A stretch of 64,000 nucleotides of DNA from Rhodocyclaceae bacterium (lineage in GTDB: Bacteria > Pseudomonadota > Gammaproteobacteria > Burkholderiales > Rhodocyclaceae): positions 1 through 64,000 of the forward strand of contig VMSX01000008.1 in assembly GCA_013791905.1 (NCBI GenBank), written 5' to 3'. A program made the position numbers and the translations under genes. Each line of letters begins with the position of its first letter. The stretch's first letter is position 1. Below, one piece after another: positions 604 through 62,327 of this stretch. The notes beneath the pieces were generated by a model. That model was not told where the DNA came from, searched no databases, and saw only the letters and a list, made by a program, of their open reading frames with translations.

Positions 604-1761
604 TTATCCCCTGAAATAGTGTTCCATGCGCGCTAACCCTGCAGCAAGTTTCTCGACACCAACCGTGTAGGCAAAGCGCATGTGCGATGCGGGCGCGTTG
701 TCGCCAAAGTCCAATCCCGGAGTTGCCGCCACGCCGGCCTGCTCGATGAGCTTCTCAGCCAGTGCCTGGCTGTTTCTGTCCAGTTCGCTGCTGTCGGCGT
801 AAATGTAAAAGGCCCCTTGAGGCTCGCTGCCGATACGAAAACCCAATTTGCGCAAACCCGGTAACAATAGATCGCGACGGGCGCGAAATTCGTCGCGCCG
901 TGCTTCCAAAATGGCGATGGTTTCCGGGGCGAAGGCGGCCAGTGCGGCATGCTGCGCCGGTGCCGAGGGCGCGATGAACAAATTCTGCGCCAGCTTTTCG
1001 ATGTCGCGTACCAGGTGTGGCGGTGCCACCAGCCAGCCGAGCCGCCAGCCGGTCATGCCAAAGTATTTTGAAAAGCTGTTGATGACAATGATGTCTTCCG
1101 ATATCGACAACGCAGTGGCAGCATCGACACCGTAGGTCAGGCCGTGGTAGATCTCGTCGACGATCAAGGCGCCGCCGCGCGCGCGCACCGTCTGCCAGAG
1201 CCGTGCCAACTCGGTTGGTTCGATCATGGTGCCGGTCGGGTTGTTGGGCGAAGCAACCAGCAAGCCGCGGGTTTTCGCCGTCCAGCCAGCGCCGACTTTT
1301 TCGACCGTGGGCTGGAAGCCGGTAGCCGCCTCGACATTGAGTGGGCGCGGCACGCCTTCGAGCAGTCGCACGAAGTGGCGGTTGCACGGATAGCCGGGGT
1401 CGGCAAGCAGCCATTCGTCACCGGGGCTGATCAAGGCGCCCAGCGCAAGCAGTAGCGCACCCGAAGCCCCGGCGGTGACGACGATGCGTGCCGGATCGAC
1501 GGTAAGTCTGTAGCGCGTGGCATAGAAAGTGGCGATGGCTTCCCGTAATTGCGGCAGACCAAGCGCGTGGGTATAGAACACCTGACCGCCCGCAATGAAG
1601 CGTTGTGCCGCCTCGATGACAGGCTGCGGCGTCGGGAAATCGGGTTCGCCGACCTCCATGTGGATGATGTCGCGGCCCTGCGCTTCGAGTGCCTTCGCCC
1701 GCGCCATGAGCTCCATGACGTGGAAAGGTTCGATGCCGGCCATGCGTGAGGCTATCTTCAT
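604..1761 (-). CDS. PLP-dependent class I/II aminotransferase
   Basis: A 385-residue fold-type I aminotransferase that would transfer an amino group from an amino acid to a 2-oxo acid using pyridoxal phosphate. The PLP-lysine motif SFSKYFGMTGWRLGW, the SPNNPTG motif and the early GEPDFPTP motif are all present. The chosen start (ATG at 1761) has a GGAG seven bases upstream; the open frame extends about 33 codons further upstream without support. A family A 24-bp repeat (1276-1299) lies in the coding sequence and encodes the residues KVGAGWTA just before the SPNNPTG motif. Substrate preference cannot be read from the sequence. It lies downstream of pckG, separated by a hairpin. Confidence 0.93.
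   Translation of the reverse strand: MKIASRMAGIEPFHVMELMARAKALEAQGRDIIHMEVGEPDFPTPQPVIEAAQRFIAGGQVFYTHALGLPQLREAIATFYATRYRLTVDPARIVVTAGASGALLLALGALISPGDEWLLADPGYPCNRHFVRLLEGVPRPLNVEAATGFQPTVEKVGAGWTAKTRGLLVASPNNPTGTMIEPTELARLWQTVRARGGALIVDEIYHGLTYGVDAATALSISEDIIVINSFSKYFGMTGWRLGWLVAPPHLVRDIEKLAQNLFIAPSAPAQHAALAAFAPETIAILEARRDEFRARRDLLLPGLRKLGFRIGSEPQGAFYIYADSSELDRNSQALAEKLIEQAGVAATPGLDFGDNAPASHMRFAYTVGVEKLAAGLARMEHYFRG
1276..1299 (-). repeat. Family A repeat inside the aminotransferase gene
   Basis: A 24-bp copy with one mismatch to consensus. On the minus strand it reads in the frame giving KVGAGWTA. Length around it fits the usual family pattern (a WT..TR..LVASPNNPTG block), so it seems to replace rather than lengthen the protein. 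Confidence 0.85.
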
Positions 1762-7401: not shown

Positions 7402-7425
7402 CGCCGTCTCGCCAGCGCCGACTTT
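7402..7425. repeat. Family A repeat (intergenic, pbpG-lutA)
   Basis: A 24-bp copy with one mismatch, 9 bp after the pbpG stop. The consensus lies on the minus strand. Confidence 0.85.
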
Positions 7426-10355: not shown

Positions 10356-10447
10356 TTCCTCCGCCGGGCCGCCCCAAGGAGGAACAGCCAAAATAAGGAG
10401 CGGGCAGCGCCCGCGAACATCAATCACCCCCTTCTTCGAGAAGGGGG
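10356..10447 (+). repeat. Family B element, copy 1
   Basis: The terminal hairpin has a 7-bp stem TTCCTCC/GGAGGAA (10356-10362 with 10378-10384) around the invariant 15-nt loop GCCGGGCCGCCCCAA. Downstream come a GCGGGC/GCCCGC hairpin and a 9-bp stem (10427-10435 with 10439-10447). Confidence 0.85.
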
Positions 10448-10470
10448 ACGGGGGGATGAGGATCATAGTC

Positions 10471-10560
10471 CCTCCGCCGGGCCGCCCCAAGGAGGAACAG
10501 CCAGTACATGGAGTGGGCCGGGCCCGCGAACAACCGTCACCCCCTGCTTCGAGAAGCGGG
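10471..10560 (+). repeat. Family B element, copy 2 (tandem with copy 1)
   Basis: A 5-bp stem CCTCC/GGAGG (10471-10475 with 10491-10495) surrounds the same 15-nt loop. The same order of secondary hairpins follows, with changed bases that still pair (CCCTGCTTC against GAAGCGGG, one mismatch). Confidence 0.85.
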
Positions 10561-10666
10561 ATGCGGCCCTGCCGCACAAAGTGAGCGTGGGGGACAATTC
10601 TTGTCATCCTGACGCGGGGATACTGCGTTATTGCATCCAGAACCACATATATCGGAGGCAAATAAC

Positions 10667-12996: not shown

Positions 12997-14319
12997 ATGA
13001 TCGAATCATTATCCCCGGAGCAAAAAAGACGCCGCCTGATCATTCTGGCCGTGGTCTCGGCCGCATATGTGCTGTCATTCTTCCAGCGCTTCGCGCCGGC
13101 CGGTATCGCCCAGGATCTGGCGGCGGCCTTCCAGACCTCGGCGGCTTCGCTCGGCGTGCTGGCGGCCACCTATTTTTACGTCTACACCATCATGCAGATA
13201 CCGACCGGCATTCTGGTCGATACGCTCGGACCGCGGCGCATCCTGCTGCTGGGCGGCATGGTCGCCGGTGGCGGCAGCCTGTTGTTCGGCATGGCTGAGA
13301 GTCTGGATGCCGCATTGCTCGGGCGTACCTTGGTGGGCCTGGGTGTTTCGGTGACGTTCATCGCCATGCTGAAGATTATCGCCGTCTGGTTTGAGGAACA
13401 TCGCTTTGCCACGGTCGTCGGGCTGGCCATGCTGGTCGGCAACCTGGGCTCGGTTCTGGCCGGTGCGCCGCTCTCCGCGCTGGCACAGGCTACCGGCTGG
13501 CGTGGTGTGTTTGTCGGGGTGGGCATCTTGTCGCTGACACTTGGCATCATGGCCTGGATCTGGGTGCGCGACCGGCCGCAAGCAGAAGGTGCCGCCGTTC
13601 CCGGCAACGTGACGGGCCCGTCTGACGCCGTCCCATCAGCGCCGACTTTTGACCGCACAGTGATACTTACCGGCTTGTTGCGCGTGGTGAAGAACCGCGC
13701 CACCTGGCCGACGGTATTCGTCAATTCCGGCTTGTCGGGCAGTTTTTTTGCCTTTGGCGGACTGTGGGCGACGCCCTTTCTGATACAGGGTATGGGCATG
13801 AGCCGCGCGACGGCCACCGCCCATTTGTCGCTGTATTTCGCCGGCTTCGCCGTCGGCTGCCTGCTCGTCGGCATGCTTTCCGACCGACTGCGGCGCCGGA
13901 AGCCGGTGATCCTCGTCAGCTCGCATATTTACGGTGCGATCTGGCTGGTGTGGCTGTCGGGCATGGCGCTGCCGCTCATCGCTACCTATACTCTATTTGG
14001 CTTGATGGGCTTGATGACGGCAAGTTTCACCCTCAGTTGGGCCTGTGCCAAGGAAGTAAATCCGCCGGCCTTGTCCGGCATGTCGACTTCGGTGACCAAT
14101 ATGGGCGGTTTTCTGATGGGGGCGCTGCTGCAGCCGGCGGTCGGCTGGATCATGGACCAGCGCTGGAGCGGCGCAATGGCCAATGGCGTAAGGCTTTACG
14201 CACCCGAGGATTACCGCTGGGGGCTGCTGTTGATCGCCTGCGCCGCCTGGGGTGGCGCGGCGGCGGCGTGGAAAATCAAGGAAACACACTGTCGCAATAT
14301 CTGGAAGGAAAAAGTATGA
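12997..14319 (+). CDS. MFS transporter
   Basis: A 440-residue major facilitator with about 12 membrane segments, and the GILVDTLGPRRILL and MLSDRLRRRKPVI cytoplasmic loop motifs at equivalent positions in the two halves. The substrate is unknown. The loop between the halves (about residues 200-220) contains a family A repeat, encoding AVPSAPTF. The stop codon overlaps the start of the CbiX-like gene (ATGA), so the two are probably co-translated; a porphyrin, metal or tetrapyrrole-related substrate is a speculation from that link only. Confidence 0.9.
   Translation: MIESLSPEQKRRRLIILAVVSAAYVLSFFQRFAPAGIAQDLAAAFQTSAASLGVLAATYFYVYTIMQIPTGILVDTLGPRRILLLGGMVAGGGSLLFGMAESLDAALLGRTLVGLGVSVTFIAMLKIIAVWFEEHRFATVVGLAMLVGNLGSVLAGAPLSALAQATGWRGVFVGVGILSLTLGIMAWIWVRDRPQAEGAAVPGNVTGPSDAVPSAPTFDRTVILTGLLRVVKNRATWPTVFVNSGLSGSFFAFGGLWATPFLIQGMGMSRATATAHLSLYFAGFAVGCLLVGMLSDRLRRRKPVILVSSHIYGAIWLVWLSGMALPLIATYTLFGLMGLMTASFTLSWACAKEVNPPALSGMSTSVTNMGGFLMGALLQPAVGWIMDQRWSGAMANGVRLYAPEDYRWGLLLIACAAWGGAAAAWKIKETHCRNIWKEKV
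13626..13649 (+). repeat. Family A repeat inside the MFS gene
   Basis: A 24-bp copy with two mismatches, consensus on the minus strand, falling in the central cytoplasmic loop where extra or changed residues are tolerated. Confidence 0.75.
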
Positions 14320-14718: not shown

Positions 14719-15756
14719 ATGAAAACCTCCCTCAACACCCCGAACCAGTACGGGCGATTCGTTTCGGCTGTACGGGCTGCCGCCGTGATCGGCATCACCG
14801 TGGCGTCATTGACACCTGCCCTGGCTGAGTCTGCGGCCACGCGCATCATTGAACTGCGTACGGTGCAACTTACCCTGCCCGCCGAGGCGGTTCTCGAGGC
14901 GACCCGGCAGGCCACGGTCGCCACGCAGGTGTCGGGGCGCATCGTCGAGGTGCTGGTCGAAGCCGGCCAACGCGTCAAGGCCGGACAGTTGTTGATGCGG
15001 ATAGACGCCCGCGAGGCGAATGAAACTGCCGCTGCCGCCCGCGCGCAACTGGTGCAGGCCGAAGCCAATTTCCAGCGCACCCGGGATCTCTTCAAGCAAA
15101 AATTCGTCAGCCAGGCAGCGCTCGACAAAGCCGAAGCCGACATTAAAACGGCGCGCGCCCAAGTCGCCGCCGCGGGCGCAGGGGTTTCGCATTCGACAGT
15201 GACCGCACCGATCGCCGGCATTGTTGCTGAACGCCATGCCGAACTGGGCGAACTGGCCGCTCCCGGCCGGCCATTGGTGACGCTGTTCGAGCCCAAGGGC
15301 TTGCGTGCCATCGCCAATATTCCGCAGTTCAGACTGAAGGAAGCGCAGCGTGCCACGAAGGCCAGGATCGAGTTTCCCGAAAGTCGGCGCTGGCTGGACG
15401 GCGCCCGCATCGAGATCCTGCCGACGGTGGATGCCAAAAGCCACACCGCGACTGCCCGGGTGTATTTGCCCGACGATGCAGAAGCCCTGCACGGCATCGT
15501 GCCGGGCATGGCGGCGCGCGTGCATTTCGTCATAGGCACGGTACAAAAACTTACCGTGCCGGCATCGGCCATCCTGCGGCGGGGCGAGATCAGCGCCGTC
15601 TATGTCGTCGGCAACGGTCCGGCCCGGCTGCGCCAGGTGCGCCTCGGCGAAGCCGTGGCCGATGGCGAGATCGAGGTGCTGTCCGGTCTCGCCACGGGTG
15701 AACAGGTGAGCCTCGATCCGGTCAAGACCGGCATTGAATTGAAACAAACTAAATAA
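14719..15756 (+). CDS. RND efflux periplasmic adaptor (membrane fusion protein)
   Basis: A 345-residue adaptor linking an RND pump to an outer-membrane channel. An N-terminal signal segment ends near LTPALA, then come the biotinyl-lipoyl-like half (ATQVSGRIVEVLVEAGQRVKAGQLLMRID), a short coiled-coil hairpin and beta-barrel domains. ATG 14719 gives a clean signal peptide; a TTG at 14683 is the upstream alternative. No strong ribosome-binding site is seen. A family A repeat lies at 15380-15403 (ESRRWLDGA). The permease gene follows after 5 bp. Confidence 0.9.
   Translation: MKTSLNTPNQYGRFVSAVRAAAVIGITVASLTPALAESAATRIIELRTVQLTLPAEAVLEATRQATVATQVSGRIVEVLVEAGQRVKAGQLLMRIDAREANETAAAARAQLVQAEANFQRTRDLFKQKFVSQAALDKAEADIKTARAQVAAAGAGVSHSTVTAPIAGIVAERHAELGELAAPGRPLVTLFEPKGLRAIANIPQFRLKEAQRATKARIEFPESRRWLDGARIEILPTVDAKSHTATARVYLPDDAEALHGIVPGMAARVHFVIGTVQKLTVPASAILRRGEISAVYVVGNGPARLRQVRLGEAVADGEIEVLSGLATGEQVSLDPVKTGIELKQTK
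15380..15403 (+). repeat. Family A repeat inside the RND adaptor gene
   Basis: A 24-bp copy with one mismatch, read in a different frame from the KVGAG copies, giving ESRRWLDGA. The residues fall in the beta-barrel region. Confidence 0.8.
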
Positions 15757-19273: not shown

Positions 19274-19494
19274 AGAGCATTCTGTTCATCTCGATAGCCG
19301 ACTCCCCGGCCTATGCACGCATCCTGGTGGCGTTGGGCCGCAAAGGCGGATCGACCCGCGAGGAAGTCGCCCAGGCCGCGCATGTCGGCGTAACCACGCT
19401 GTCGGCGGGGCGACTATCGCCGTACCCGCTGCGGGGTACTTTGTCTCGCCAGTCCCGAAAAGGGGATTTCCTTCGGTCAGCCGACTGCTGTTGA
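19274..19494 (+). other. Possible decayed coding remnant after the DUF2892 gene
   Basis: About 150 bp after the DUF2892 stop read without a stop as ILFISIADSPAYARILVALG and then a KGGSTREEVAQAAHVGV-like stretch, which has a helix-rich, DNA-binding-like look but no start codon of its own. It runs into an extended family A repeat. It may be a gene fragment or chance. Confidence 0.3.
19418..19486. repeat. Extended family A repeat carrying both modules 1 and 2
   Basis: On the minus strand: an AGTCGGC arm, module 1 (27 nt, 19453-19479), CTGGCGAGA, module 2 (21 nt, 19423-19443, containing a GTACCC/GGGTAC hairpin), then CGGCG. It is the only copy in the window with both modules. Confidence 0.8.
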
Positions 19495-23248: not shown

Positions 23249-23309
23249 AAAAGTCGGCGCCGTTCCGCCAGTCCCGGAAAGGGGATTTCCTGCGGTCACG
23301 CCGACTTTT
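23249..23309. repeat. Extended family A repeat (module 1), inverted-arm form
   Basis: AAAAGTCGGCG at 23249-23259 and its reverse complement at 23299-23309 enclose a 27-nt module 1. The whole could fold as one large hairpin. It lies between the GGDEF-EAL gene and the broken DUF2892 copy. Confidence 0.85.
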
Positions 23310-26881: not shown

Positions 26882-27750
26882 ACATCGGCTTCATCGGCCT
26901 CGGCGGCATGGGCCAACCGATGGCGGAACATCTGCTGGCCGCCGGCCACACGCTGACTGTCTGGGCACGCCGTCCCGCCAGCGCCGACTTTCTGCTGGAC
27001 AAGGGCGCACAGTGGGCGGAGACACCTGCTGCCGTTGCTCGGGCGAGCGAGATCGTCTGCACCAACGTCACCGGCAGCGCCGATGTCGAGGCACTCGCCG
27101 CGCAACTGATCACCACCTTGAAACCCGGCAGCTTGCATCTCGATTTCTCGACCATTGCACCGCAAGTGGCGCGCGAACTCGCGCTGCGCTACGCAGAAAA
27201 AGGCGTCGATTTTGTCGATGCGCCGGTTTCCGGCGGTACGTCGGGCGCGCGCGCGGCGACGCTGGCCATCATGTGGGGCGGCAAGGCGGCGCTGGCGGAA
27301 CGGCTCGCCCCGCTGTTCGCCTGCCTCGGCAAGACCATCGTGCATGCCGGCGAATCCGGTGCCGGGCAGGTGGCGAAGGCCTGCAACCAGTTGGTGATGG
27401 TGGCGGCCATCGAGGCGACCGCCGAGGCGGCGCGTCTGGCGGCGGCCGCGGGCGTCGATTTCAACAAGGTACGGCAGGCGCTGCAGGGTGGCTCGGCCGG
27501 ATCGCGCGTCCTTGAATTCTTTGGCGCCAAGATGGCGGCGCGTGATTTTGCCCCAGGCGTCGTGGCACGCCTGCACCACAAGGACTTTGTCATGGTGATG
27601 GCCGAGGCGACGCGCCAGAACATACCGCTGCCGGTCGGCGGCACGGTGATGCAACAACTCGACGGATTAATGGCGGCGGGCTGGGGAACCGAAGACACGT
27701 CGCGGCTGCTCTGCGTGCTTGAGCGGACCGCGCCTGCCCATCTGATATAG
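26878..27750 (+). CDS. NAD(P)-dependent beta-hydroxyacid dehydrogenase (GarR/GlxR-like), copy 2
   Basis: A 290-residue tandem paralogue of the preceding gene, with the same motifs: GFIGLGGMGQPMA, DAPVSGGTSGA and the catalytic Lys in GQVAKACNQ. It has clearly diverged in sequence, so this is an old duplication. At residues 30-38 a perfect family A repeat (26968-26991) encodes RRPASADF, while the paralogue has RRPASLEPF at the same place with no length change. Confidence 0.9.
   Translation: MNIGFIGLGGMGQPMAEHLLAAGHTLTVWARRPASADFLLDKGAQWAETPAAVARASEIVCTNVTGSADVEALAAQLITTLKPGSLHLDFSTIAPQVARELALRYAEKGVDFVDAPVSGGTSGARAATLAIMWGGKAALAERLAPLFACLGKTIVHAGESGAGQVAKACNQLVMVAAIEATAEAARLAAAAGVDFNKVRQALQGGSAGSRVLEFFGAKMAARDFAPGVVARLHHKDFVMVMAEATRQNIPLPVGGTVMQQLDGLMAAGWGTEDTSRLLCVLERTAPAHLI
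26968..26991 (+). repeat. Family A repeat (perfect) inside the second dehydrogenase gene
   Basis: An exact consensus copy, minus orientation. The neighbouring paralogue aligns through the site with no gap, so the 24 bp did not lengthen the protein. Confidence 0.88.
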
Positions 27751-34591: not shown

Positions 34592-34615
34592 AAAGTCGGC
34601 GCTGGCGGGACGGCG
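34592..34615 (+). repeat. Family A repeat (perfect, intergenic)
   Basis: An exact copy on the plus strand in the 104-bp gap between the convergent metal-operon and CorC-like genes. Twelve flanking bases outside the repeat differ from those of the perfect copy at 55589. Confidence 0.9.
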
Positions 34616-37495: not shown

Positions 37496-37519
37496 CGCCG
37501 TCCTGCCAGCGCCGACTTT
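37496..37519. repeat. Family A repeat (after the aminotransferase)
   Basis: A 24-bp copy with one mismatch, minus orientation, 12 bp after the stop codon. Confidence 0.85.
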
Positions 37520-47728: not shown

Positions 47729-47940
47729 GGATGCAGCGCCGAGTCATCGGTGTTGCTTGCGTCGACCGCAGCTGTTTCGGCGCGGGCCTGCTTCGCGCGC
47801 AGCCGGGCATTCTTGTCTTCGTCTGCGAAAACGAAGCGTCCCGCCAGCACGCAACCCTTCATGCCGGGATCGCAAGGCAGGTTGTTGATCTTGCCGCAGC
47901 TGTCATTGACTTCGTGAGGACAACCCCAGCCGCCGGACAT
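47725..47940 (-). CDS. Small conserved-looking Cys protein, 71 residues
   Basis: Not recognised by function. Four cysteines occur in the first 30 residues (GWGCPHEVNDSCGKINNLPC and GMKGCVLAG), a likely metal site, followed by an Arg/Ala-rich tail. It starts within the glnS stop (TAATG) and its stop overlaps the KTSC gene start, so it is embedded in the glnS operon. Confidence 0.75.
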   Translation of the reverse strand: MSGGWGCPHEVNDSCGKINNLPCDPGMKGCVLAGRFVFADEDKNARLRAKQARAETAAVDASNTDDSALHP

Positions 47941-49721
47941 TATTTTGCCTTGCTCCAGGAGTCTTTCAGCGTGACTGCCCGATTGAACACCGGCGCACCC
48001 GACCGGGAGTCGACGCGATCGGCGACGAAATAGCCGTGGCGCTCGAACTGGAAGCGCTCCTCGGCTACGGCATCCTTCAGGGAGGGTTCGAGTTGGGCGC
48101 TGATGACGGTCTTCGAGTCCGGGTTGAGGTCAGCGATGAAATCGCGGCCACCACTGCCGGGCGCTTCGACGGCAAACAGCCGGTCGTAGAGCCTGACTTC
48201 GGCCGTGTAAGCGTGGCGTGCCGACAGCCAGTGGATGTTGCCCTTGACCTTGTAAGTGTCGGCGCCCGGCGTGCCGGACTTCGAATCAGCGAAGTAGTTG
48301 CAATGTACGGCGACGACGTTGCCGTCGGCATCCTTGTCGCAACCGGTGCATTCGACGACGAAGCCGTAACGCAGGCGCACCTTGTTGCCCGGAAACAGCC
48401 GGAAGTAGCCCTTGGGCGGAGTTTCGGCGAAGTCCTCGCGCTCGATCCAGAGTTCGCCGGAGAACGGCACGGGGCGTTTGCCCAAGTCCGGCTGTTGCGG
48501 GTGGTTGGGCGCTTCACAGCCTTCTTCCTGCCCCGGCGGATAGTTGTCGATGATGAGCTTGAGCGGGTCGAGCACGGCGATGCGGCGCGGCGCGGTTTCG
48601 TTGAGATGGTCGCGCATGCAGCCTTCGAGCACGCTCATGTCGATCCACGCATCCGACTTGGCGACGCCGATCATCTCGGCAAACTGACGGAAGCCTTCGG
48701 GCGTGAAACCACGGCGGCGCGCACCGCTCAGGGTCGGCAAGCGCGGGTCGTCCCAGCCGTCGACATGCTTTTCGTCGACCAACTGGATCAGCTTGCGCTT
48801 CGACAGCACGACGTAGCTGAGGTTGAGCCGCGCGAACTCCGTTTGCTGGGGCAGTGGCGTATTGACGCAGCCGAGTTCGGCCAGCCGCTGCAGTAGCCAG
48901 TCGTAGAGCGGCCGCTGATCGGCGAATTCGAGCGTGCACAGCGAGTGCGTGATGTTTTCCAGCGCGTCCTCGATGGGATGCGCGTAGGCATACATCGGAT
49001 AGATGCACCAGGTGTTGCCGGTATTGTGGTGCTCGGCATGGCGAATGCGGTAGATGGTCGGATCGCGCAGGTTGATGTTGCCGGAGCTCATGTCGATCTT
49101 TGCCCGCAGCACATGGGCGCCGTCCGGAAACTCGCCGGCCTTCATGCGCCGGAAGAGATCGAGGTTTTCGGCGGGCGTGCGATCGCGGTAGGGCGAATTT
49201 TTTCCCGCTTCGGTCAGCGTGCCGCGGCTGGCGCGCATTGCATCGGCCGACTGCGACTCGACATAGGCATGGCCGGCCTCGATCAGTTTTTCGGCGAACT
49301 CGTACATCCACTGGAAATAGTTCGAAGCGAAGTACTGGTTTTCACCCCAGGCCCAACCCAGCCAATGCACGGCGTCGATGATGGCATCGACGTATTCCTG
49401 CTCTTCCTTCTCCGGATTGGTGTCGTCGAAGCGCAGGTGGCAGGCGCCGCCGTAGTCCTGCGCCAGGCCGAAATTCAGGCAGATCGACTTGGCGTGGCCG
49501 AAATGCAGGTAGCCATTGGGCTCCGGGGGGAAGCGGGTACGGATTTTCGCAATGTCCGCCGTACCCGCTGCGGGGCATTTCATCCCGCCAGAGCCGACTT
49601 TCTGCTGGAGCGCCGGACCGGGCTGGCCCGACCAGGTGCGGCTGGCGTATTTGCCGGCGGCCAGGTCGGCCTCGATGATGTTGCGAATGAAATTGGAGAC
49701 TTTGCTGTCTGAATCGGCCAT
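47940..49721 (-). CDS. glnS: Glutaminyl-tRNA synthetase with an N-terminal insertion
   Basis: A 593-residue class I synthetase charging tRNA-Gln. FPPEPNGYLHFGHAKS carries the HIGH-type signature and VVLSKRKL the KMSKS-type one; the C-terminal anticodon-binding barrels are intact. Between ADLAAGKYAS and RTRFPPEPNG, where E. coli GlnS has about five residues, there are about 37, of which some 15 (KVGSGGMKCPAAGTA) are coded by an extended family A repeat at 49557-49601. The start ATG at 49721 gives the expected MADSDSKVSNFIRNII. It heads an overlapping operon ending in ppk2. Confidence 0.93.
   Translation of the reverse strand: MADSDSKVSNFIRNIIEADLAAGKYASRTWSGQPGPALQQKVGSGGMKCPAAGTADIAKIRTRFPPEPNGYLHFGHAKSICLNFGLAQDYGGACHLRFDDTNPEKEEQEYVDAIIDAVHWLGWAWGENQYFASNYFQWMYEFAEKLIEAGHAYVESQSADAMRASRGTLTEAGKNSPYRDRTPAENLDLFRRMKAGEFPDGAHVLRAKIDMSSGNINLRDPTIYRIRHAEHHNTGNTWCIYPMYAYAHPIEDALENITHSLCTLEFADQRPLYDWLLQRLAELGCVNTPLPQQTEFARLNLSYVVLSKRKLIQLVDEKHVDGWDDPRLPTLSGARRRGFTPEGFRQFAEMIGVAKSDAWIDMSVLEGCMRDHLNETAPRRIAVLDPLKLIIDNYPPGQEEGCEAPNHPQQPDLGKRPVPFSGELWIEREDFAETPPKGYFRLFPGNKVRLRYGFVVECTGCDKDADGNVVAVHCNYFADSKSGTPGADTYKVKGNIHWLSARHAYTAEVRLYDRLFAVEAPGSGGRDFIADLNPDSKTVISAQLEPSLKDAVAEERFQFERHGYFVADRVDSRSGAPVFNRAVTLKDSWSKAK
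49557..49601 (-). repeat. Extended family A repeat (module 2) inside glnS
   Basis: On the minus strand: AAAGTCGGCTCTGGCGGGA, then a 21-nt module 2 containing CCCCGCAGCGGG, then CGGCG. Its length of 45 nt keeps the reading frame. Confidence 0.85.
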
Positions 49722-50165: not shown

Positions 50166-53100
50166 AATTCGACGTTGAGGCCCGCCGGGCGGCGCGTCCG
50201 GCGATCAGCTATGACGATGCGCTGCCGGTCAGCGCGCTACGCGCCGAGATCGCGGTGGCGATCCGCAAGCATCAAGTCGTCGTCATCTGTGGCGAAACCG
50301 GTTCGGGCAAGACGACGCAGTTGCCGAAAATTTGCCTCGAAATCGGCCGCGGCCTGACCGGCCTGATCGGCCACACCCAGCCACGGCGCATCGCCGCGCG
50401 CGCCACTGCCAGCCGCATCGCGCAGGAACTTAAATCAGAACTGGGCCGCTACGTCGGCTACAAGATTCGCTTCACCGACCGCACCTCGGGCGAGAGCTAC
50501 ATCAAGCTGATGACCGATGGCATCCTGCTGGCGGAAACGCAGCACGATCCACTGCTGCGCCAGTACGACACCATCCTGATCGACGAGGCGCACGAACGCT
50601 CGCTCAACATCGATTTCCTGCTTGGCTATCTAAAGTCGGTGCTGGCGCGACGGCGTGACTTGAAGGTGATCGTCACCTCGGCGACGCTGGATGCGGAGCG
50701 TTTCAGCAAACACTTTGACAACGCGCCGGTGATCGAAGTGTCAGGCCGGCTGTATCCGATCGAGACACGCTACCGACCTTTCGATGAAAAGAAAGACAGC
50801 GACCTGAATGACGCCATCGTGGCTGCAGTCAGCGAGGCGTATCGCGAAGGGCCGGGCGATGTGCTGGTGTTTCTCCCAGGCGAGCGCGAGATCCGCGAGG
50901 CGGCAGAGGCATTGCGCAAACATCACCCCCCAGGCCTGGAAGTGCTGCCGCTGTTCGCCCGTCAGTCGGCGCAGGAACAGGCGCGGGTATTTGCCGGCCA
51001 TCAGGGGCGGCGGGTGATTCTGGCGACCAACGTCGCAGAAACCTCACTCACCGTGCCGGGCATTCGTTATGTGATCGATTCCGGGGTGGCGCGCGTCAAG
51101 CGTTACTCGCATCGCAACAAGGTCGAGCAATTGCAGGTCGAGGCAATCTCGCGCGCCTCGGCCAATCAGCGCGCCGGCCGCTGCGGGCGCGTGGCGGCCG
51201 GCGTCTGTTTCCGCCTTTACGCCGAAGACGATTTCAACAAGCGCGCGGCTTACACCGAACCGGAGATTCTGCGTTCATCGCTGGCCGGCGTGATCCTGCG
51301 CATGAAATCGTTGCACCTCGGCGCTGTGGAGGATTTTCCATTTCTGGAAGCGCCGCTGCCGCGCATGATCGCCGATGGCTACACCCTGCTGGCCGAATTG
51401 GGTGCCCTTGACGAGACCAGCAAGGAGCTGACCGCCGTTGGCAAGGAGTTGGCGAAGCTGCCGCTCGATCCGAAGATCGGCCGCATGATCCTCGCCGCGC
51501 GCGAGCACGGCTGTCTCGGGGAGGTGCTGATCATCGCCGCCGCGCTTGGCACCCAGGACCCGCGCGACCGACCGCAGGAACAGGCCGCAGCGGCCGACCA
51601 GGCGCATGCCAAATGGAAGGACGAGAAATCCGAGTTCCTTTCCTACCTGAAGCTGTGGGCTGCTGCCGATGAAGTCTGGAAGCAGGAGAGTTCGAACAAG
51701 CAGCGCCAGTGGTGCCGGCAGAACTTCATCAACTGGCTGCGTTTGCGCGAATGGCGCGAAGTCCATGGCCAGTTGCTGACCGTGTGCCACGAACACGCAT
51801 GGCAAGAGAATCAACTTCCGGCCAGCTACGAGGCCATCCACAAGGCGCTGCTGACGGGCTTGCTCGGCCACCTCGGCTTGAAAAACGAGGAAGACCAGAA
51901 TTATCTGGGCGCGCGTGGCATCAAATTTTTCATCCATCCCGGCTCGGCGCTGGTGAAAAAGGCCGGGCGCTGGATCGTCGCCGCCGAACTGGTCGAGACC
52001 TCGCGCCTGTTCGCCCGCTGTGTGGCGAAGATCGAACCCGCGTGGCTGGAGCAGGTCGGCGCGCACCTGATTCGCCGCCATGTCTTTGAGCCGCACTGGG
52101 GAAAATCCGCCGGGCAGGTCGTCGCCTGGGAGCGCATCACCCTGCACGGCCTGCTGCTGCATGCCAAGCGCCGCGTCAGCTTCGGCAAAACGAGCGATGA
52201 AGTGCCGCTGGCGCGCGAGCTGCTGATTCGCGGTGCGCTGGTGAATGGCGAAGTGGGCGAGGACTGGGTGCGCAAATGGCGCTTCCTGCAGCACAACCAG
52301 AAACTCAAGGCGGAGATCGAAAAACTCGAACACAAGTCGCGGCGTCCCGATGTGCTGGTCGATGACGAACTGGTGTACGCCTTCTTCGATGCCGCCGTGC
52401 CGGCCGGCATCAACACGCTGGCAGCCTTTGACAAATGGCGGCGTGAAGCAGAGCGTGAAACCCCCCGGCTGCTCTGCCTCGAAAAAGACCAATTGATGCG
52501 CCACGAGGCGGCCGGCATCACCACCGACGCCTTTCCGCACACGCTCGAACATCGCGGCCAGACCTATCAGCTTGCCTATCACCACGACCCCGGCGCGTCC
52601 GACGACGGCGTGACGCTGGCGCTGCCGCTGGTGGCGCTCAATCAGGTGCCGGCAACGCGCCTCGAATGGCTGGTGCCCGGCCTGCTCAAGGAAAAAATCA
52701 TTGCGCTGCTCAAGACCTTGCCGCAGAAATATCGCCATCGCGTGCAGCCGCTCGATGCCTTTGCCGAGCAGTTTTGTGCGGCAGCAGAAGCTGGCGAGCC
52801 GTATGGCGATGAACCGCTGGTGCTGGCCCTGACGCGCAGCATCGAGGAGAAGATTGCGTTGAAACTTCCCCTCGACAGTCTGCGGCCCGGCGAACTGCGG
52901 CCGCATCTGTTCATGAACTTCCGGCTGCTGGACGAGCACGGCGGCACGCTGGCCATGTCGCGCAATCTCGCCGAGTTGCGCGCTCAGCATGGCGATCGCG
53001 TGACGCAGGCGTTTACCCGTGCCGATGTTCCGGTTGTCAGCAACGTAAAAGTCGGCGCTGGCGAGACGGCGTGGACCTTCGGTGCATTGCCCGAACTGCT

Positions 53101-55588: not shown

Positions 55589-55612
55589 AAAGTCGGCGCT
55601 GGCGGGACGGCG
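55589..55612 (+). repeat. Family A repeat (perfect, intergenic)
   Basis: An exact copy on the plus strand between the family B element and the phasin terminator. Confidence 0.9.
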
Positions 55613-55628: not shown

Positions 55629-55660
55629 AAAAAAAAAGCCCCGACCGAAGGTCGGGGCTT
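55629..55660 (-). terminator. Phasin gene terminator (probably bidirectional)
   Basis: A perfect 11-bp stem AAGCCCCGACC/GGTCGGGGCTT with a GAA loop (55636-55646 with 55650-55660) is followed on the minus strand by nine T. A second small hairpin, GGTTCC/GGAACC, lies at 55665-55681. Confidence 0.92.
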
Positions 55661-55715
55661 AAACGGTTCCATTGCGGAACCGGAGGAGGAGACAATACTG
55701 TTACTTGATCAGAGC

Positions 55716-60362: not shown

Positions 60363-62327
60363 ATGTCCCTTTATCTGATTCTGCTGTTGCTGGGCGCTGC
60401 CGTCATGGCGGTGGCCGTTTGTCGCAGTATCGGCTTGCCGCCCATTCTGGGCTATCTGTTGGTTGGGGCCCTGGCCGGACCGCATGCCTTCGCCGTGCTG
60501 CCCGACATTGAAAGCGCCCACCGGCTTGCGGAATTCGGCGTGGTATTCCTGATGTTTACCATCGGCCTTGAATTCTCGCTGCCGCGCCTGTTTGCCATGC
60601 AGCGCATCGTGTTTGGCCTTGGTCTGGCGCAGGTGCTGCTGACCTTCATGGCGGTCGGAGCGGGGGCCATGATCTGGGGTGTGCCGTGGCAGGCCAGCGT
60701 GGCCCTCGGCGGCGCGATCGCCATGTCATCGACGGCGATCCTTTCCAAACTGCTCGCCGAGCGGCGCGAACTGGATGCGCCGCACGGCCGCGAGGTGATG
60801 GGCGTGCTGCTGTTCCAGGACATTGCCGTGGTGCCGTTGCTGGTGCTAATCCCGGCGCTGACGCAGCCGGTTAATGTGCTTGCCGGTGCGCTGGGCTGGG
60901 CGCTGGTGAAGGCTGTCGTCCTGTTGGCGCTGGTGCTGTTCGTCGGCCAGCGGCTGATGCATGCCTGGTTCGGTCTGGTGGCGCGCCGCAAGTCACCCGA
61001 ATTGTTCATGCTCAACGTGCTGCTGGTGACGCTCGGCTTCGCCACCGTCACCGAGCTGGCCGGCCTGTCGCCGGCACTTGGCGCATTCATCGCCGGCATG
61101 CTGATCTCGGAGACCGAATACCGTTATCAGGTCGAGGAAGACATCAAGCCGTTCCGCGACGTGCTGCTTGGCCTGTTTTTCATTTCCACCGGCATGCTGC
61201 TCGATGCGGCGGCGATCTGGCACGATCTGGCGGGCGTGCTGGCGCTGCTGGTGTTGCTGTTGCTCGCCAAGCTGGCCATCGTCGGTGGCGTGTCACGCGT
61301 GATGGGCAGCAGCGCAGGTACGGCATTGCGCTCGGGTCTGTGGCTGTGTGCCGGTGGTGAATTCGGTTTCGTGCTGCTGGTGCTCGCCACCGACAACGGC
61401 CTGGTTGATCGCAACCTGGTCCAGCCGGTGCTGGCGGCGCTGGTGCTGTCGATGATCATTGCGCCACTGATCGTCATGTATGCCGACCGCATCGTAATGC
61501 GCCTGGTCGCCTCGGAATGGATGATGCGCTCGATGCAGATCACCCAGATCGCGGCACGCACCGTGGCGACCGAAAAGCACGCCATTCTGTGCGGTTATGG
61601 CAAGACGGGCCAGCATCTGGCGCGCTTCCTGGAATCCGAGCAGATCGGCTTCATGGCGCTCGATCTCGACCCGGACCGGGTGCGCGAGGCAGCCAACGCC
61701 GGCGAACCGGTCGCCTGGGGCGACTGCACGCGGCGCGAAAATCTGCAGGCGGCGGGTATCGCCAGGGCGCGGGTATTGATCGTGACCTTTGCCGACATCG
61801 AGACGACGTTGCGTCTCGTGCAGCGCGTGCGCGAACTGCGCCCCGACCTGCCCATCGTGGCCCGTTCGCGCGAGGAAGAGGATGCCGAAAAGTTGTTCGA
61901 GGCCGGCGTGGCGGAGGTCGTGCCCGAGGCGCTCGAATCCTCGGTAATGCTCGCCACCCATGCCCTGGCGCTGGTCGGCGTGCCGATGCACCGTGTCATC
62001 CGTCGCCTGCGCGAATTGCGCGAGCAACACTATGCGCTGCTGCGCGGCTTTTTCCATGGGGCGACCGATGCCGGCGAACACCTGAGCGACGCCGAGCAGC
62101 TCCGCCTGCATGCCGTCACGCTGGATGCGGATGCCTGGGCAGTCGGACGCAGCCTGGATGAAGTGGCGCTGGCAAAAGTCGGCGCTGGCGTGACGGCGGT
62201 AAGAAGGCGATCGCAACCGAAGGTGGCTGTCGCGGGCGATACGCTGCTGCAAGTGGGCGACGTGGTGGTATTGCAAGGCGGCGCGACGGCGGTGGCGGCG
62301 AGCGAAGAGCGTTTGCTGCGAGGGTAG
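60363..62327 (+). CDS. KefB-like CPA2 monovalent cation:proton antiporter
   Basis: A 654-residue inner-membrane antiporter: about 12 membrane segments (FGVVFLMFTIGLEFSLPRL, AMSSTAILSKLLAERRE, GVLLFQDIAVVPLL), a TrkA-N Rossmann domain (HAILCGYGKTGQHLARFLE, about 405) and a C-terminal TrkA-C-like domain (about 570-650). KefB/KefC relatives are potassium effluxers gated by glutathione adducts; ion and gating here are inferred. A family A repeat codes for KVGAGVTA in the TrkA-C part. Confidence 0.93.
   Translation: MSLYLILLLLGAAVMAVAVCRSIGLPPILGYLLVGALAGPHAFAVLPDIESAHRLAEFGVVFLMFTIGLEFSLPRLFAMQRIVFGLGLAQVLLTFMAVGAGAMIWGVPWQASVALGGAIAMSSTAILSKLLAERRELDAPHGREVMGVLLFQDIAVVPLLVLIPALTQPVNVLAGALGWALVKAVVLLALVLFVGQRLMHAWFGLVARRKSPELFMLNVLLVTLGFATVTELAGLSPALGAFIAGMLISETEYRYQVEEDIKPFRDVLLGLFFISTGMLLDAAAIWHDLAGVLALLVLLLLAKLAIVGGVSRVMGSSAGTALRSGLWLCAGGEFGFVLLVLATDNGLVDRNLVQPVLAALVLSMIIAPLIVMYADRIVMRLVASEWMMRSMQITQIAARTVATEKHAILCGYGKTGQHLARFLESEQIGFMALDLDPDRVREAANAGEPVAWGDCTRRENLQAAGIARARVLIVTFADIETTLRLVQRVRELRPDLPIVARSREEEDAEKLFEAGVAEVVPEALESSVMLATHALALVGVPMHRVIRRLRELREQHYALLRGFFHGATDAGEHLSDAEQLRLHAVTLDADAWAVGRSLDEVALAKVGAGVTAVRRRSQPKVAVAGDTLLQVGDVVVLQGGATAVAASEERLLRG
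62175..62198 (+). repeat. Family A repeat inside the KefB-like gene
   Basis: One mismatch; codes for KVGAGVTA within the SL.E..L...G..VTAVRRR block of TrkA-C domains, apparently without extra residues. Confidence 0.85.

Follow-up and report, generated by a model that had tools for sequence, protein, structure and literature searches.

A 24-nt repeat within the glutaminyl-tRNA synthetase gene of a Rhodocyclaceae bacterium as a candidate uptake-sequence-like site

A 64,000-nt stretch of contig VMSX01000008.1 from a Rhodocyclaceae bacterium, referred to here as the window, contains a glnS gene with a translated genomic repeat near its 5' end. The locus raises the question of where this repeat came from, and whether it is responsible for the length of the protein segment in which it lies. 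Rickettsia palindromic elements (RPEs) are in-frame repeat insertions that add residues to proteins, and the initial annotation had proposed an insertion of this type as the cause of an enlarged segment in an essential enzyme.

The GlnRS linker and its repeat

The glnS product was matched to known glutaminyl-tRNA synthetase (GlnRS) structures in the PDB, with 5bnz_A as the top match (E=8.8e-208) and the E. coli enzyme, 1gsg, at E=1.5e-203. The linker between DLAAGK and TRFPPEPNG, which had been put at about 37 residues against about five in E. coli, was found by alignment to have 37 and 5, with one of the five E. coli residues sitting between two aligned pieces and absent from the displayed alignment. 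It was likewise borne out that a repeat is translated in frame just ahead of the HIGH-motif strand of this essential enzyme: GlnRS residues 41-55 (KVGSGGMKCPAAGTA; 45 nt, 49557..49601) are the conceptual translation of a repeat core together with a hairpin module, module 2. Of the location first given for it (49557-49660), the lower end stands and the upper end is slightly off, as the repeat copy stops at 49601. The copy comprises a 24-nt core, with one mismatch to its genomic consensus, that is broken after 19 nt by the 21-nt module. An assembly error is unlikely at this site because the combination of core and module recurs elsewhere in the genome (e.g., C4:156858, 193291 and 329595) and because the frame is kept.

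Most of the additional length is accounted for without the repeat. Of the 32 residues by which the window linker exceeds that of E. coli, 22 belong to the usual long betaproteobacterial linker and 10 are particular to the window, seven of these being encoded by the 21-nt module and three being DIA. Measured from NFIR to RT, the segment has 53 residues in the window, 21 in E. coli and 43 in the ordinary long form. The linker was surveyed in 117 fetched glnS loci (106 distinct sequences), a set skewed towards long linkers because the loci were retrieved through their similarity to the N-terminus of the window GlnRS, and linkers with more than six mismatches to the motif were classed as motif-free. 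Among 78 distinct motif-free linkers, from records titled Accumulibacter, Dechloromonas, Azonexus, Alcaligenaceae and others, 72 had exactly 43 residues and the other six had 21-27. The same N-terminal search listed 49 family genomes (counted by hand) that match the window GlnRS from residue 55 onward only. In 20 motif-free genera of the family, picked for contig size, the linker had 43 residues in 13 and 22 residues in seven. Two linker lengths are therefore usual in the family sample, and the 53 residues of the window lie outside both. These counts do not support the repeat as the cause of the enlarged segment: relatives with the same long linker and no repeat, which the initial annotation had named as the refuting observation, are largely what was found in both the long-enriched set and the 20 genera.

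Of 28 motif-bearing linkers, five of which were admitted at exactly the six-mismatch limit and are weak cases, 15 had 43 residues, one had 40 and 12 were longer (46-56). All 12 linkers of more than 43 residues carry the motif at six or fewer mismatches, and no motif-free linker that was read exceeds 43. The peptide encoded by the module is present in none of the other GlnRS linkers printed. The 21-nt module is therefore a genuine in-frame insertion in GlnRS and, as an in-frame block absent from relatives, is RPE-like. An AlphaFold2 model has pLDDT values below 50 at residues 43-52 and of about 90 at residues 21-40, which supports placement of the module in a loop predicted to be disordered; the low pLDDT fits tolerance of the insertion, not a function for it.

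The glnS genes of three genomes of the same genus (G019, G080 and G126; loci L142, L143 and L144) encode the short linker, with 21 residues from NFIR to RT. In the GlnRS tree the window groups with Sulfurisoma-like sequences and not with these three, with a support of 94, just under the program's strong mark of 95. Either loss in the sister genomes or a transferred glnS would be a possible account of this pattern. A further short linker is encoded by L093, elsewhere in the tree, and loss may thus have occurred more than once, or glnS may have been transferred. In four other glnS genes (L038, L064, L069 and L070), roughly 14 residues (IRVDTVPGASARVH) are added in frame ahead of NFIRH, and the added segment contains the inverted repeat GTACCCG...CGGGTAC. 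A mobile repeat was ruled out for this hairpin, as it is single-copy at one or fewer mismatches in all four carrier genomes; at three mismatches, one additional place is found in each of G069 and G001. The essential gene thus seems to contain an insertion that was either inherited or transferred.

A genome-wide 24-nt motif and its hairpin modules

The motif consensus, AAAGTCGGCGCTGGCGGGACGGCG, was derived from 80 sites at five or fewer mismatches in 464 kb of the window's own genome. Its edges are sharp and its flanks unconserved, except that A is preferred one base upstream, and there is a soft spot at positions 16-18. It holds about 38 bits by column sum, a value inflated by the choice of sites with five or fewer mismatches. 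All six of its frames are open, KVGAGGTA being one of the encoded peptides. The whole 3.64-Mb genome has 514 copies, at three or fewer mismatches with three positions degenerate, whereas the reversed pattern has one. The mismatch histogram in the 464 kb is bimodal (16, 24, 22, 5, 6, 7 and 3 sites at zero to six mismatches); the reversed control gave no sites up to five mismatches and two at six. Module 2 with its end was found at 57 places at three or fewer mismatches, compared with none for its control. The two control comparisons and the bimodal histogram exclude chance resemblance. A structured RNA was also considered and dropped, as Rfam gave no match at the repeat element and the fold z-scores of six repeat forms (-0.7 to +1.0) indicated no unusual fold. 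The copies in the window are listed in Table 1.

Table 1. Positions of the GlnRS features and motif copies in the window
Feature	Coordinates	Strand	Remarks
glnS, glutaminyl-tRNA synthetase, 593 aa	47940..49721	-	ORF; ATG at 49721, stop at 47940
GlnRS N-terminal linker, residues 25-61	49539..49649	-	between DLAAGK and TRFPPEPNG
Motif in GlnRS, 5' part	49583..49601	-	AAAGTCGGCTCTGGCGGGA (KVGSGG.)
Hairpin module 2 in GlnRS, 21 nt	49562..49582	-	TGAAATGCCCCGCAGCGGGTA; within motif, in frame, 7 codons
Motif in GlnRS, 3' part	49557..49561	-	CGGCG
Motif, 1 mismatch	1276..1299	-	in CDS (KVGAGWTA); common to G080, G019, G126
Motif, 1 mismatch	7402..7425	-	in ORF
Motif, 2 mismatches	13626..13649	-	in CDS (DAVPSAPTF)
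Motif, 1 mismatch	15380..15403	+	in CDS (ESRRWLDGA)
Long form with both hairpin modules	19418..19486	-	5' end degraded
Long form, motif with hairpin insert	23258..23308	-	TGACCGCAGGAAATCCC...GGGA
Motif, perfect	26968..26991	-	in CDS (RRPASADF); G080 ortholog without motif, equal length
Motif, weaker, 4 mismatches	27282..27305	+	in CDS of the 26968 copy (GKAALAERL)
Motif, perfect	34592..34615	+	no conserved CDS found there
Motif, 1 mismatch	37496..37519	-	in ORF
Motif, 2 mismatches	50632..50655	+	in hrpA conserved segment, frame KSVLARRR; motif-free orthologs equal length
Motif, 1 mismatch	53048..53071	+	in hrpA variable linker (KVGAGETA)
Motif, perfect	55589..55612	+	no conserved CDS found there
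Motif, 1 mismatch	62175..62198	+	in CDS (KVGAGVTA)

The spacing of 61 copies in 400 kb was more even than random (CV 0.73 vs 0.98, P=0.006). With genes called by a simple home-made model, 40 of the 61 lay within a CDS and 21 between genes, where their density was threefold higher. Orientations are mixed along these 400 kb, the motif is not palindromic, and strand counts are near-equal (e.g., 292/281, 204/233 and 265/261). The motif occurs 150-823 times in 16 of the 150 genomes in a family sample, including that of the window, 60 times in one and at most 32 times in the other 133; as the dialect of the window was used, these figures undercount carriers of other dialects (G149, G114 and G010; see below). 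In an order sample of 110 genomes, counts were high only in the window's genome and G019, and none of the others exceeded six. In G019, a single genome, no copies were found in the parts read of two smaller plasmid-like contigs (100 of 149 kb and 60 of 103 kb; G+C 0.56-0.57 vs 0.64), which we take to resemble conjugative plasmids, compared with 16 copies in 80 kb of the largest contig. Three genomes that are otherwise motif-poor have clustered copies (G192:C3 24-31 kb, 4/6; G055:C50 1.7-13 kb, 4/6; G056:C104 13-20 kb, 5/24), as if DNA had been imported there from carriers.

Two kinds of insert occur within motif sites. One, of about 27 nt, follows AAAGTCGGCG and has a conserved CCC/GGG stem around a variable loop; the other is the 21-nt module 2, whose loop has two main variants. 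In the 464 kb, 12 examples of each were listed, two of the ~27-nt inserts having a degraded 5' end; the scan for this insert demanded ACTGG behind the stem. The window's genome has 80 copies of the 27-nt insert and 57 of the 21-nt module, and 27 other genomes have at most 17 and 10, respectively. One 27-nt insert lies in frame within an ORF that is presumably TrpC. The modules are mobile-element-like, and RPE-like insertion is the best reading for them.

Other repeated sequences were also observed. A second abundant repeat (TTGGGGCGGCCC / GGGCCGCCCCAA) has 26 copies in 464 kb, in the window and its own contig C4, and a sequence related to it is present as a tandem copy at 10358-10561. A 42-bp tandem array of seven copies (AGAAAGCCGCGCCGAAGAAAGCTGC...) at positions 1-304 is consistent with an Ala/Lys/Pro-rich protein tail. 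Adjoining the motif copy at 55589 is an sRNA-like hairpin with a T-run (55630-55694), which falls below the Rfam thresholds (Betaproteobacteria toxic sRNA, ncS54).

Orthologous sites and dialects

The window and genomes G126, G080, G019, G101 and G010 are syntenic in the region compared. Of 82 motif copies (four or fewer mismatches) in the syntenic regions, 65 are inside ORFs that reach 100 bits or more in cross-genome matches, three are in weak ORFs and 14 in none. Comparison with orthologs gave 64 trusted cases in which the motif is shared and 41 in which it is absent; a further 14 shared and 52 absent cases were untrusted and were set aside. In 23 of the 41 trusted absent comparisons there was no net length change; the change was negative for 12 and positive for six, with one at +7 residues and none at +8. 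These comparisons are small in number, are not independent of each other and all come from a single syntenic region, and by our reading 22 absent comparisons fall at 11 distinct sites. Replacement in place is exemplified by one motif-bearing 15-residue segment that faces RVQGKVGARETALGW in its ortholog, by YLRQLLPKRPDL against YLKSVLARRRDL in HrpA, and by AIITGRDSPIVTRRAANLGI against AIITGRKSALVERRAENLGI. These alignments suggest that the 24-mer at orthologous sites mostly arose without length change.

Ungapped orthologous blocks were bimodal, with 43 at five or fewer mismatches, three at six and 22 at eight or more. An orthologous site is thus either motif-like or unrelated, with few intermediates, and stepwise point mutation was not seen in these blocks. 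Where the motif is absent from the ortholog, 47% of positions differ inside the site and 29% in the flanks; where it is shared, 10% differ inside and 21% in the flanks. At the third bases of codons for the same residue in shared sites, 20 of 259 (7.7%) differ inside, compared with 261 of 784 (33%) in the flanks (p=4e-18), a contrast inflated by the choice of sites as motif-like and by the counting of comparisons in both directions. By our reading, mismatches to the motif tend to preserve residues needed by the protein.

The motif differs between genomes in the manner of dialects. Consensuses from samples end in ACGGCG in the window's genome and G126, and in ACGGCA in G080 and G019. More divergent forms were found in G045 (AAAGTCGACGCTGGCGAGACGGCA), G149 (AAAGTCAGTCGTGGCGGTACGCCG) and G114 (AAAGTCAGCCGTGGCGACACGCCG); the dialect consensuses (g1, g45, g66 and g11) were drawn from samples of 32-464 kb, in which motif density was 0.15-0.39 per kb. 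The dialects share two ends, AAAGTC and ACGSC, and the interior blocks change. The GlnRS site of G149 has two mismatches to its own dialect and seven to that of the window, the glnS contig not being part of the G149 sample; the site of G114 has two and six, its sample having included the glnS contig. The GlnRS site of G045 (L141) fits its own dialect poorly, with seven mismatches compared with nine to that of the window. G010 has no copies of the window's dialect and has a 24-nt dialect of its own (AAAGTCAGTCCC...), of which 40 kb contain six anchored sites. Neither the GlnRS linker nor the hrpA position 50632, for which G010 served as an outgroup, is among the listed places of this dialect. 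One own-dialect copy in G010 (L192/L193; ~24736, reverse) is apparently in the same hrpA linker that carries KVGAGETA in the window. When 11-20 kb of each of 20 further genera were scanned with the anchored pattern, none of the 20 gave an exact match, and no dialect of the anchored shape is present there at comparable density.

Competing explanations and the uptake-sequence reading

That the GlnRS segment is nothing special, merely an ordinary betaproteobacterial linker with a chance likeness to a repeat, is scarcely credible. The linker is long in most of the motif-free relatives read, and for 22 of the 32 extra residues this account is true; however, the match levels of core and module were never reached by controls, and in G149 and G114 the GlnRS site follows the genome's own dialect. 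That a RAYT (Y1) transposase moved the motif as a REP-type element is also very improbable. REP/RAYT elements are short, abundant and partly intergenic, the motif is likewise short, high-copy and partly intergenic, and the window's genome has one Y1_Tnp match. Most motif copies are nevertheless in genes (40/61), the repeat is without unusual fold, and Y1_Tnp (PF01797) gave no match in six genomes with 203-682 copies (G019, G080, G126, G101, G038 and G064, some of them drafts, G038 being 85% complete), yet is present in motif-poor G087, G119 and G028. This distribution refutes the REP/RAYT origin, unless an undetected enzyme acts.

The initial annotation's own reading, an RPE-like mobile element that jumps into genes in frame and so enlarged GlnRS, is unlikely, although somewhat less so than the two preceding accounts. 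Its strength lies in the modules, which are hairpins amplified in the window's genome, sit within motif sites and are in frame both in GlnRS and in the ORF recognised as TrpC; the parallel with RPEs holds for the 21-nt module, which adds seven in-frame residues. For the 24-nt core it does not hold. No length difference of +8 residues was seen at trusted sites, 23 of 41 comparisons had no net length change, 15 of 28 motif-bearing GlnRS linkers stay at 43 residues, the flanks are not conserved, the core is absent from the sampled plasmid-like contigs, and most of the excess in the GlnRS linker is ancestral. A transposed or RPE-type block was accordingly rejected for the core, and the RPE-like reading of it is mostly refuted; unlike RPEs, the core shows no block insertion, and the modules, of 21 and ~27 nt, were seen inside the 24-mer. 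The main rival to the uptake reading is a possible, if rather doubtful, one: that the 24-mer is bound by a chromosome-organising, recombination (Chi-like) or methylation system and is maintained by selection, with no role in uptake. An origin without length change, even spacing, preference for the chromosome and strong conservation would follow from a chromosome-organising site too. Against it stand the hundreds of sites on both strands, the mixed orientation along 400 kb, the lack of a palindrome, the interior blocks altered between dialects and the length of 24 nt, which is long for such sites; none of these is decisive.

The best explanation is that the motif is an uptake-sequence-like word in a third bacterial family, the Rhodocyclaceae. 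It was judged best on a combination of features: the word is short, its sites arose with no change in length, it is conserved as DNA, it is evenly spaced and favours the chromosome, and it has dialects. On this reading, the 24-nt motif spread over the genome, of which the GlnRS repeat is one site, probably works in the way of DNA uptake sequences (DUS) or uptake signal sequences (USS), with natural transformation as the selecting process. DNA carrying a self-recognition word, which a pilin-type receptor might read, would be preferentially taken up and recombined, and the word would accumulate on the chromosome. New sites would arise in situ, both between genes and within protein segments able to accommodate the peptides they encode. 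The GlnRS linker would be one such segment: the ancestral 43-residue NFIR-to-RT stretch reads KVGAG(D/G)TA, its length unchanged in many carriers, and the window's site would additionally hold an in-frame 21-nt module of the kind found inside 24-mers, a kind that may move by targeting the motif. ComEC was found in 27 of 28 genomes, in carriers and motif-poor relatives alike, and is not specific to the motif. Several points weigh against the uptake reading. With 24 nt and ~38 bits, the motif exceeds DUS in length and uniformity. A length difference is present in 18 of the 41 trusted comparisons, orthologous sites show few intermediates, and the plasmid-like contigs of G019 are lower in G+C. The GlnRS site of G045 fits its own dialect poorly, and hairpin modules resemble mobile elements and are not known to belong to uptake sequences.

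The papers cited here describe uptake sequences for Neisseriaceae and Pasteurellaceae only (PMC3630211, PMC12616744), and search listings of the literature returned nothing relevant on the motif or on uptake sequences in Rhodocyclales. As with the 24-mer, DUS of Neisseriaceae have many chromosomal copies on both strands and dialects, which follow phylogeny (PMC3630211). In section 9 of PMC2397512, orthologous DUS sites are DUS-like or unrelated, often facing gaps, which is read there as an origin by recombination rather than single point mutations; DUS are also scarce in acquired DNA (PMC2397512). They differ from the 24-mer in length (up to about 13 nt), in host family and in the part conserved between dialects, a central CTG rather than two ends. 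USS of Pasteurellaceae, as far as PMC12616744 describes them, are short motifs with dialects, discontinuous, up to 32 nt long and present at 200-800 per Mb; a 9-nt core with AT-rich regions contrasts with the contiguous G+C-rich 24-mer and its soft spot of 2-3 nt. The density of the 24-mer lies below that of Hin-USS and overlaps that of Apl-USS (PMC12616744). An ICE with an attachment site seemingly adapted to integrate at DUS motifs (PMC7371117) parallels the hairpin modules inside 24-mers.

For the fuller proposal the balance is about even: part of the Rhodocyclaceae may have a third, independent DNA uptake language, an unusually long word of 24 nt whose ends are fixed (AAAGTC...ACGSC) and whose interior differs by genus, placed in loops of essential proteins that tolerate it (GlnRS, HrpA) and parasitised by 21-27 nt hairpin modules that land there. 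If so, it would be a third case with dialects, biased DNA uptake would have arisen repeatedly, and the word would serve as a natural marker of gene flow within these bacteria. It would also shape essential proteins, GlnRS linkers of more than 43 residues occurring, in the set read, only where the word is present.
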